NCBI GenBank assembly: GCA_018401695.1
Contig: JAGYKD010000003.1
Coordinates: forward strand, 481,576 to 521,155
Origin: Flavobacteriales bacterium
GTDB taxonomy: Bacteria; Bacteroidota; Bacteroidia; CAIKAF01
DNA: 39,580 nt
Direction: 5' to 3'
In this document: positions 2,468-39,092 of the stretch, in pieces
Numbering within the stretch: the stretch's first letter is position 1
Layout: every line of letters begins with the position of its first letter
Program-made: the position numbers and the translations under genes
The notes under the pieces: model-generated
Database searches by the model: none
Told to the model about the DNA's origin: nothing
What the model saw: the letters and a program-made list of their open reading frames with translations, nothing else

Positions 2468-3248
2468 TTACCAACTTACAAAAGGCATGGCTTGAGGGTA
2501 ATCAAAGGCCTCGGTTTGGCTTATCAAGTAATTGGCCAAGTCCTCTCGGGAAATTTTTGTGCTGCCATTCACACCAACCCAACCCACGCGGTATTGATTT
2601 TTTTCAGGGCCATCCACCAATCTGGGAGCTCTAACAATGGTCCATTCCAGCCCACTGCTTTTTAAAACTGTGGCATGGTCTTCGGCATCGCGGAGCACAT
2701 GTGGAACCGCCAATTTCATAATTCCACGGATGAGCAAATCGGGCAGTTTGGGTTGGTCTTTTTCAGGGAAAGGCAATCCTCCTCCCGATAAAGAAAGGAT
2801 GCGTGAAACCCCGGCACTTTTCATGGCTTGAACAAGGTTGGAAGTGCCTAAGCTTTGAATATCTTTTGGGCCACCTTTAACTTGACCAAATACATTAAGA
2901 GACTGTTGATGCGACGCTATTCTGGCGGCAACTTGGCGTTGCAGTCAAATATCAAGGTCCTCATTTACAATTAGTAAACTGCGGCCTTTCTATTTGCCTG
3001 CGCCTTAATTTGCCTTGAAAACGCAACGCATCAACAGTCTCATTAAATACTAAGGAAGTGCCATGCACCAATGCATGTAAAGAGTTTAGGTCTAAGACAT
3101 CTCCCTTTACCCAGGTTAGCTTAGGGTGCTGTAGTTCGATTTTGTCGGGGTTTCGGTAAAGGCCACGCACACTGTGCCCTTGATTTAATAGTTTTTCTAC
3201 CACAAGGATGCCTGTTCTTCCGGTGGCACCGGTAATGGCTATATGCAT
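2468..3248 (-). pseudogene. NmrA-like NAD(P)H-binding oxidoreductase, interrupted by a 143-bp insertion
   Basis: The N-terminal part starts at the ATG at 3248 (MHIAITGATGRTGILVVEK, a Rossmann GATGRTG loop) and runs to GTSLVFN. There the MITE-like element 2899-3041 enters, and its sequence brings a stop at 2961. The C-terminal part resumes as VFGQVKGGPKDIQSLGTSNL and continues with VSRILSLSGGG, WTIVRAPRLVDGP and YPQAMPFVSW. Deleting the element and one ATTAA duplication (148 bp) gives an unbroken 210-codon frame joined at LVFN-VFGQV. This is the normal length of an NmrA/SDR-a family reductase. It is divergent from the HxlR regulator gene, a common pairing in which the regulator controls the reductase. 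In this genome the gene is expected to be inactive. Confidence 0.93.
2899..3041 (-). mobile_element. MITE-like element copy 1 (143 bp), inserted in the reductase gene
   Basis: Terminal inverted repeats are perfect over 15 bp: GAGACTGTTGATGCG at 2899-2913 and its complement at 3027-3041. The element is flanked by the 5-bp direct duplication ATTAA (2894-2898 and 3042-3046). It has no coding capacity. Read on the minus strand it aligns without gaps to the copy at 25752-25894, with 121 of 143 bases the same by hand count. It contains a small internal hairpin TTTAC-TAATT-GTAAA. Confidence 0.93.
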
Positions 3249-20904: not shown

Positions 20905-21163
20905 GTAGCGACGCATGGCTACGCGTCGAAATGGGGGCGTAGCGACGCATGATCATGCGTCGAAATCATGCGCCGAAATCATGCGCCGAAATGGGGGGGG
21001 CGTGGAGACGCAATATTTTGCGTCGAAATCATGCGCCGAAATCATGCGCCGAAATGGGGGCGTAGCGACGCATGATCGTGCGTCGAAATCATGTGCCGAA
21101 ATCATGCGCCGAAATCATGCGCCGAAATGGGGGGCGTGGAGACGCAATATTTTGCGTCTCTAC
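20905..21163. repeat. Palindromic tandem array with alternating GACGCATGATCATGCGTC and GACGCAATATTTTGCGTC units
   Basis: Five units start with GTAGCGACGC or GTGGAGACGC. Each contains a palindromic core (GACGCATGATCATGCGTC, a GATCG variant, or GACGCAATATTTTGCGTC), then one to three AAATCATGCGCCG repeats and a G-run. The last unit closes as GTCTCTAC. It fills the gap between the convergent lipoprotein and yidC genes. No spacers of constant length are present. Confidence 0.9.
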
Positions 21164-25746: not shown

Positions 25747-25751
25747 ATCAC

Positions 25752-25894
25752 GAGACCGTTGACGCGTTGTGTTTTCAAGGCGAATTAAGGCACGGACAAA
25801 TCGAAAGGCCGGAGTTTACTGTTTGTAAATGAGGATCTTGAGATTTGGTCGTAACGCAAAGTCGCCGCCAGAATAGCAACGCATCAACGGTCTC
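25752..25894 (+). mobile_element. MITE-like element copy 2 (143 bp)
   Basis: Same length as copy 1 and gap-free alignment in the opposite orientation. Ends are GAGACCGTTGACGCGTTG and the complement of GAGACCGTTGATGCGTTG (17 of 18 paired). It is flanked by the 5-bp duplication ATCAC (25747-25751, 25895-25899). The internal hairpin is TTTAC-TGTTT-GTAAA (25815-25829). It is non-coding and intergenic. Confidence 0.92.
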
Positions 25895-25903
25895 ATCACT
25901 CAA

Positions 25904-25923
25904 AGACAGGAGGCATCCCGTCT
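25904..25923. repeat. Diverged single copy of the AGACGGGATGCC... hairpin
   Basis: AGACAGGAGGCATCCCGTCT is the complement form of the repeat at 633-773 with one stem mismatch. It lies 4 bp from the target duplication of MITE copy 2, at the 3' side of dgt. Confidence 0.75.
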
Positions 25924-25942
25924 TTACCTTATCCACCATTAA

Positions 25943-38327: not shown

Positions 38328-38564
38328 CTTGGATATTTCTTCCATAGGCAAGTTAAATTCCGTATCCGCCCTTTGCATCGGTGCTCCTGACCCAGCACCT
38401 TAGATGCGGAGCGCAGCGGCAGCGTGCAGCGTCCCCGAAGTTTTGGGGCGGGCTACCATTTGCCAATAGAAAAAGAGAAGATTTCTATTTGGGCGCCTCA
38501 TCCGTCTCCGGCCATTAGCTGCCTTGTAGCGCAGCTACGCAGCTAAGCGTGGGCAAGGAGCTTC
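38328..38564. other. GC-rich intergenic region with a short hairpin, no gene seen
   Basis: First part of a 1.16-kb gap. It contains GATGCGGAGCGCAGCGGCAG and CCCCGAAGTTTTGGGGCGG, then the hairpin AATAGAAA-n-TTTCTATT (about 38465-38490). It resembles dispersed GC-rich repeats rather than a gene. The third MITE copy is inserted at its right side. Confidence 0.55.
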
Positions 38565-38811
38565 GAGACCGTTGACACATGGTGTTTTCAAGGTTTCTAA
38601 ATGCCGACCGCAGCGTCGGTGCGAATTAAGGCACGGACAAATCGAAAGTCCCCTGACGCTGCGGTCAGGGCAGGCCGGAGTTTACTAATGGTAAATGAGG
38701 ATCCCTGACGCTGCGGTCAGGATAAAATACTTGAGATTTGGCCGTAACGTAAACCCTGACGCTGTGGTCAGGACAGGATCGCCGCCAGAATAGCCATGTG
38801 CCAACGGTCTC
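38565..38811 (+). mobile_element. MITE-like element copy 3 (247 bp, expanded by four hairpin inserts)
   Basis: The ends GAGACCGTTGACACATGG and the complement of GAGACCGTTGGCACATGG pair at 17 of 18 positions. The 5-bp duplication GCTTC flanks it (38560-38564, 38812-38816). Relative to copy 2 it carries four extra segments of 25-28 bp and is otherwise collinear. The internal hairpin is TTTAC-TAATG-GTAAA. Orientation is that of copy 2. Confidence 0.9.
38604..38772. repeat. Four hairpin inserts sharing GACGCTGCGGTC inside MITE copy 3
   Basis: CCGACCGCAGCGTCGG at 38604-38619 (reverse orientation), CCCTGACGCTGCGGTCAGGG at 38651-38670, CCTGACGCTGCGGTCAGG at 38704-38721, and a CTGTGG variant at 38755-38772. 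All are perfect stems of 5-7 bp around a 6-nt loop. Confidence 0.88.
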
Positions 38812-38816
38812 GCTTC

Positions 38817-39092
38817 CTTTGGTCGCTCTTGGCCGGGCAGCTGCTGTGCGCGCTACATCGGCAGGCTAATTGTCCTGCGCTGGGGCGCTTAAGCTCCGTA
38901 GGGCAATTTTCCCACAGCCCAAGGGTTTTAACCGTGGGCTGTAGTGCGATTTCAACCGTGGGCCATCTACATCCAAAGTTTGAGAGGGAAGGCGTCCGCC
39001 AAGGCACCCGTTCCATTTCCATACCGGGGGAATACCCGGGAATAAACTCCTGCTTGGCCATAATTCCAGCAAAACCAAAGAAATCTACATCC
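38817..39092. other. Intergenic sequence with an inverted repeat, no gene seen
   Basis: It contains the inverted repeat ACAGCCCAAGG-n-CCGTGGGCTGT (38914-38942), a second AACCGTGGGC at 38954-38963, and a CCGGG-n-CCCGG stem near 39030. One plus-strand frame (38796-39248) crosses this area but starts inside the MITE and has no protein-like features. Confidence 0.5.

Follow-up and report, generated by a model that had tools for sequence, protein, structure and literature searches.

The window analysed here, a stretch of 39,580 nucleotides from a Flavobacteriales bacterium (G000:C13:481576-521155; genome size, 2.99 Mb), carries three copies of a small repeated element (Table 1). A preliminary description had credited these copies with shared ends, an internal hairpin, and perfect but different 5-bp duplications, and direct reading of the sequence confirms it: all three (3/3) have GAGAC(C/T)GTTG tips at both ends and an apical TTTAC-N5-GTAAA hairpin, and each is enclosed by a perfect target duplication of its own (ATTAA, ATCAC, and GCTTC, respectively). 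Copy 1 has the opposite orientation to copies 2 and 3 (minus strand), and copy 3 is longer by four hairpin inserts of 24–28 nt each. For copy 2, the predicted fold has a free energy of −64.8 kcal/mol (z −7.3). The window also contains other small repeats. A 26-nt palindrome, AAGACGGGATGCCTCCCGTCT, which perhaps represents a REP-like family, is found in four near-tandem copies at 614-778 (families D2-D3), and a fifth, diverged copy of it adjoins MITE copy 2 at 25903-25928. At 20905-21158, GACGCATG..CATGCGTC palindromes are clustered with GTCGAAAT spacers (families D1, D4, and D5).

Table 1. Positions of the elements and their parts in the window. Bit scores and E-values refer to the covariance models R2 and R3 described in the text.
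Feature	Positions	Strand	Remarks
MITE copy 1, 143 bp, T-type tips	2899..3041	-	ATTAA flanks 2894-2898 / 3042-3046
Copy 1, ERIC-like folded core	2919..3021	-	R2 100.6 bits; ERIC model R3 12.9 bits, E 0.41, rank 2 in window
MITE copy 2, 143 bp, module-free form	25752..25894	+	perfect ATCAC duplication
Copy 2, left target duplication ATCAC	25747..25751	.	direct reading
Copy 2, right target duplication ATCAC	25895..25899	.	direct reading
Copy 2, ERIC-like folded core	25772..25874	+	R2 96.7 bits; ERIC model R3 17.8 bits, E 0.021, top match of the window
MITE copy 3, 247 bp, four-module form, within another repeat family	38565..38811	+	GCTTC 38560-38564 / 38812-38816
Copy 3, hairpin module 1 (CCGAC-CGCAGC-GTCGG)	38604..38619	+	
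Copy 3, hairpin module 2 (CCCTGACGCTGCGGTCAGG)	38651..38669	+	repeat family D7
Copy 3, hairpin module 3	38703..38721	+	repeat family D7
Copy 3, hairpin module 4	38754..38772	+	repeat family D7
Copy 3, apical part of ERIC-like core (CGGAGTTTAC-TAATG-GTAAATGAGG)	38673..38703	+	R2 26.5 bits, E 0.0016, model positions 36-65

A search of the whole host genome, as the preliminary description had proposed, returned 61 HSPs to the 143-bp copy, and exact GAGACYGTTGA tips occur 103 times in this genome, against 0 for a reversed control pattern. When the surroundings of the listed tips were fetched and inward-facing tips were paired, about 50 paired elements of 92–301 bp with ends of 10–18 bp were obtained, 31 of which are flanked by a perfect 5-bp duplication (chance 1/1024 each) of varied sequence. 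Empty sites have been found as well. The flanks of copy 3, joined with one GCTTC, align without gaps to an empty copy of its host repeat over 120 positions with 93% identity, and a copy in the sister species G003 (L108) is missing from the orthologous locus of the host genome. The host repeat of copy 3 (TCTCCGGCCATTAGCTGCC...GGAGCTTCC...) is itself intergenic, extends over approximately 38500-38564 and 38812-38900, and has many copies in the genome. The claim that the three copies belong to a MITE family is thus backed by the copies, the target duplications, the empty sites, and a same-ended IS in the same genome that is described below. Seven copies that lack the conserved interior, or core, are still flanked by perfect duplications, which indicates that the ends suffice and the core is dispensable for insertion. 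The sister species gave 47 HSPs to the window MITE and has many more copies; the MITE was absent from the four other congeners searched, and ten other genomes of the same family gave a weak core match at most. Most of the copies in the host genome are species-specific. No phage or plasmid copies were found of the window element or of a core-bearing copy from another genome, G154. At one locus of the sister species (L109, 1001-1268), two elements adjoin each other with AATTA at all three borders, the second as if it had reused the duplication of the first.

The single PF01609 match of the host genome lies between GAGACCGTTGA and GAGACTGTTGA tips 1302 bp apart. This IS (C1:161131-162432) has the tips GAGACCGTTG and GAGACTGTTG, the same as the MITE, and its transposase matches PF05598 in addition to PF01609, and NCBIfam NF033581 IS5_4 with 218.8 bits (cut-off 140). 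Because an in-frame stop is present near the N-terminus of the transposase and the checked borders of the IS carry no target duplication (ACTAG / AAAAT), present mobility is at most putative. Related IS copies in other Bacteroidota (L143, L146, and L148) have GAGACCGTTGC ends, and the GAGACCGTTG tips are common to the relatives. L143 is flanked by the 5-bp duplication AAAAT, and another related IS (L152, genome G350) with GAGCGTGTTGC/GAGCCTGTTGC ends is flanked by ATTAG, the same duplication length as in the 31 MITEs; several other IS copies have no detectable target duplication. In Porphyromonas gingivalis, ISPg4 (ends GAGACTGTTGCA) and ISPg1 belong to the IS5 family and have ends in common with the local MITEs (PMC4596501). 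The mobilising family, left unassigned in the preliminary description, can now be given as IS5-type from the NF033581 match and the likeness of the tips to those of published ISPg4, and the search for an autonomous IS that it had suggested has yielded both the same-ended IS and the relatives L143 and L152 that duplicate 5 bp. The elements are short and non-coding, have terminal inverted repeats, and share their ends with an IS5-type IS; judged from sequence, they are IS5-type MITEs, a known kind, and the predicted type of their mobiliser is an IS5-type transposase (NF033581), which would move these copies in trans. A string search of the literature for the tip and the core gave the P. gingivalis paper as the sole relevant one among the matches listed. 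The IS5-family MITEs BrickBuilt and MITEPgRS described there are likewise from Bacteroidota and have the GAGAC(C/T)NTTG ends of ISPg1/ISPg4 (PMC4596501). BrickBuilt differs in its own 23-nt tandem repeats and has been reported from P. gingivalis and P. gulae only (PMC4596501), and no ERIC-like core has been reported for either BrickBuilt or MITEPgRS, unlike the window MITE.

The two ends of an element change together from copy to copy, as had been noted for the three window copies, and a shuffling test upheld this covariation. Among 73 elements, variable tip positions match between the ends in 532 of 657 cases, compared with 442 ± 7 after shuffling, and 0 of 2000 shuffles reached as high a value. 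When right ends were shuffled only within clusters of similar bodies, 290 matches were observed against a mean of 250 (0/2000), so that the covariation survives control for relatedness. Although strong, the matching has exceptions: an inner mismatch, ...GCGTTG versus ...GCGACG, persists in the common T-type. In an alignment of 38 copies over 143 bp, compensatory pairs are found far beyond the tips (31/112, 41/101, 43/99, 44/98, 57/85, and others), all of them nested, and pair 57/85 shows all four Watson-Crick types. The element folds into a single long hairpin, with covariation between the arms over most of the length, and AGGC, CG-S-AG, UGAG, and AACG are its unpaired conserved motifs. Mismatches in the outer 15 pairs have no strand polarity (G.U 17 and A.C 19 on the core strand). 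Those further in are nearly all G.U on the core strand: 13 interior pair positions have G.U only and 2 have A.C only (two-sided sign test 0.007, our reading of the counts), with the structure inferred on the core strand, a choice that favours G.U counts. This interior polarity points to one folded strand. Three explanations had been put forward for the co-varying ends, namely a transposase that needs matching ends, gene conversion, and selection of the folded form. For the interior, the folded form is best supported by the compensatory pairs, the conserved loops, and the polar mismatches; for the outer 15 bp, where G.U and A.C are balanced, a DNA-level cause such as transposase recognition, gene conversion, or template switching may be at work.

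Longer copies differ by palindromes of 24–28 nt, typically CCTGAC-GCTNCG-GTCAGG, which occupy four sites mirrored about the element centre. Modules in the 5′ half have the reverse-complementary sequence of their counterparts in the 3′ half, and some hold a further hairpin inside their own loop. An origin of the modules as free-standing mobile mini-palindromes was considered and rejected, as modules outside recognised elements are nearly always found in decayed copies of the same element. The exception is L080 (G000 C12), where the module palindrome CTGACCGAAGCGTCAG occurs at 701-716 and 812-827 within an unrelated duplicated repeat. BOX of Streptococcus pneumoniae also consists of modular small repeats, in which terminal repeats pair in the predicted RNA and inner modules vary (PMC3049150), a likeness that is an analogy of architecture only. 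The boxB modules of BOX stand in tandem at one place, whereas the palindromic modules of the window family are distributed over the four mirrored positions.

Among 395 genomes of the class, a covariance model of the element interior (R1) found the core in 16, from 12 genera and often in several copies. There the core is joined to different ends, which are GGGCATCTCTAAAAA in G154 and GGGGAGTTCTAAAAA in G175 and G035, both with 4-bp duplications, and AAGACCGTTGC in G143, with a 5-bp duplication; in G012, G013, G163, and G183 each core copy has its own end sequence, which still pairs. For 65 cores from the 16 genomes, 92.7% of cells are paired, and sliding the partners lowers this share to 43.5% or less; double changes number 299, against 83 after shuffling (0/500). 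Mismatches on the core strand are G.U in 117 cases (57 when one constant pair is left out) versus A.C in 11. A second core model, R2, detected the core many times in family f84, which belongs to another class of the phylum; these copies have GGGCACCTCTA ends and, in 10 of 12 tested, 4-bp duplications, and the structure holds in them. An autonomous partner for the ends with 4-bp duplications was not found with PF01609 in ten genomes. One core copy is orthologous between G012 and G013 and in both precedes the same conserved gene (translation begins MAKIKVANPVVEMDG). Conservation is higher in its core than in the intergenic flanks, and its stem has changed from TCTAAAAAC/GTTTTTAGA to TCTTTAAAC/GTTTAAAGA, a compensatory change of two pairs. 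At another locus (L209), a remnant of a second core (gcggagtttatgttcggtaaatta) adjoins the first on the left of the element, suggesting nested insertion. A known RNA family was rejected, since Rfam gave no match to the element beyond noise even at E 10. Integron attC sites and REP/RAYT were considered and set aside on account of the true 5-bp duplications, the DDE-type IS ends, and the absence of a GTAG/CGTC tag at the base.

Matches of an f84 copy to intergenic DNA of E. coli, Klebsiella, and others led to a comparison with ERIC, for which the ERIC centre GTGAATCCCCAGGAGCTTACATAAGTAAGTGACTGGGGTGAGCG was used as query. With the core model, ERIC copies align in register and score 18–19 bits (E 0.009–0.015 in 5.4 kb). 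In the opposite direction, a covariance model built from 12 ERIC copies only (R3; E. coli/Klebsiella/Salmonella) gave 17 matches in 74 core-bearing loci, all on cores and all on the core strand, with a best E of 1.8e-4, and 0 matches in 164 kb of control loci. When R3 was applied unfiltered to the whole window, the cores of copies 2 and 1 ranked first and second on the correct strands. The core is thus recognised by an ERIC model at modest scores; it has no nucleotide-level match to the ERIC consensus, and GAGAC ends with varied 5-bp duplications are present instead of ERIC termini and a TA-type target duplication. For these reasons it is called ERIC-like rather than ERIC. BLAST with the ERIC centre hit 287 plasmid records, nearly all enterobacterial, and the window copy had no plasmid match. 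This conserved, cross-genus, ERIC-resembling interior is an addition to the preliminary description.

ERIC (also IRU or RU-1) of Enterobacteria and Vibrio is, like the window element, intergenic and forms an imperfect long hairpin, of ~127 bp. The two have a motif order in common (AAGGCG, GGAG(C/U)UUAC-loop-GUAA(A/G)UGA, and AACGCAG), and their covariance models recognise each other on the correct strand. ERIC has TA-type termini (PMC2229807), whereas the window MITE has IS5-type ends and 5-bp duplications; extra hairpin modules and a Bacteroidota host further distinguish the window family from ERIC. No ERIC relatives in Bacteroidota were reported in the literature searched, the coverage of which is incomplete. 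An enterobacterial element located near qseG and elsewhere (L288, L290, and L291) has a similar core, CCGGAGCGTAC-loop-GTACGTGAGGA, with 31–52 bits by the core model, and differs in its GAGCCTATCCCAGTAGGCG-like ends and TTA flanks; it is intergenic and was matched to no named repeat. In Comamonas, a betaproteobacterium, a core-like sequence lies between two fatty-acid degradation genes (L289 401-475). The likeness to ERIC probably reflects common descent. Arrival at a similar structure from separate origins is also possible because the E-values are modest (0.02 and 0.41 for window copies, 0.009–0.015 for ERIC). More tentatively, and at somewhat less than even odds, ERIC may be one branch of an old core superfamily that crosses phyla and has repeatedly acquired whatever transposon ends were available, so that the cargo persists and the ends do not. 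Such ends would be IS5-type with 5-bp duplications here, GGGCA(T/C)CTCTA with 4-bp duplications in other Bacteroidota and another class, and TA-type in enterobacteria.

Intergenic, convergent sites are preferred in the host genome (22 convergent versus 5 divergent), and many copies lie just 3′ of stop codons. Tandem sites of this genome show no orientation bias (11 versus 7). Of 38 tandem settings in other genera, 30 have the core strand antisense to the flanking genes (p 0.0005), gene calls being based on codon scores over short flanks. The antisense excess elsewhere and the lack of bias in the host genome fit poorly with a simple sense 3′-UTR role. Orientation was accordingly rejected as proof of a transcribed role, as there is no bias in the host genome and the bias elsewhere is opposite to expectation. 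For ERIC, an effect on mRNA stability that depends on orientation has been reported (PMC2229807).

With a probability of roughly 0.7, the three sites represent a two-part non-autonomous mobile element, in which IS5-type ends move an ERIC-like folded RNA passenger. For transport, the outer ~12–18 bp (GAGAC(C/T)GTTGACG) would serve as IS5-type transposon ends; a DDE transposase would cut at GAGAC in trans, and 5-bp staggered insertion would leave the 5-bp duplications. The cargo would be the conserved folded core, a long hairpin that has UUUAC-loop-GUAAA as its invariant apical stem, together with conserved unpaired motifs and covarying helices; it may be a distant relative of the enterobacterial ERIC core, and elsewhere in the phylum it is carried by other transposon ends. 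Covariation of the ends would follow from maintenance of the whole element as a hairpin, and the 24–28-nt modules would be tolerated because they branch off sideways from it at four mirrored positions. The fold is probably under selection, most likely as RNA; it would be kept as a bearable or active RNA when transcribed, as proposed for ERIC, and the cargo presumably acts as RNA. The observations under this reading are the copies, duplications, empty sites, and same-ended IS, together with core-wide covariation, different ends, and specific cross-matching with ERIC. The MITE kind itself is known, and what is new is that its IS5-type ends carry an ERIC-like fold into which mirrored hairpin modules are set.

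Template switching in quasi-palindromes yields compensatory-looking changes without selection. The element could accordingly be an ordinary IS5-type MITE, in which the hairpin is a by-product of long inverted repeats, template switching or gene conversion between the arms maintains the similarity of ends and arms, and the ERIC likeness is due to chance; the balance of G.U and A.C in the outer 15 bp agrees with this, and stable hairpins are general in MITEs (PMC10969869). Correction of quasi-palindromes should, however, mend the loops, whereas GNA/GA, AGGC, and AACG stay unpaired and are conserved across genera. With interior mismatches that favour one strand, the same core on different transposon ends, and an ERIC model that matches cores only and on the core strand only, this explanation appears distinctly unlikely. 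It is unlikely, too, that the fold acts as DNA, as a single-stranded or cruciform hairpin recognised in replication or transposition. Neither the antisense bias in other genera nor the lack of bias here would then need transcription, and the preference for intergenic, convergent sites would be in keeping with it, but the polarity of G.U over A.C and the G.A-type internal loops fit RNA or one particular strand, and the insertion of core-less copies with perfect duplications indicates that the core is not needed for transposition.

Resident copies might instead have been co-opted as regulatory parts, for example as terminators or mRNA-stability elements, and kept for that reason. The convergent preference and the many copies just 3′ of stop codons would suit such a role, but avoidance of promoters also predicts the former, as reported for pneumococcal repeats (PMC3049150). 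The orthologous copy of G012 and G013, upstream of the same gene, with its compensatory change and a core conserved above its flanks, speaks for co-option; it is the one orthologous pair tested, and most copies in the host genome are species-specific. Co-option is on the whole unlikely. For the reading as a mobile element with an RNA passenger, passenger and vehicle are separable through core-less copies with ends, cores behind different ends, and orthologous copies with compensatory changes.

ERIC has been used for decades as a PCR fingerprint, on gut bacteria, although where it came from and how it spread still await an explanation. Should the proposed link hold, ERIC would be joined by relatives from another phylum whose ends and transposase type can be identified, and both its movement and the role of its fold would become testable.
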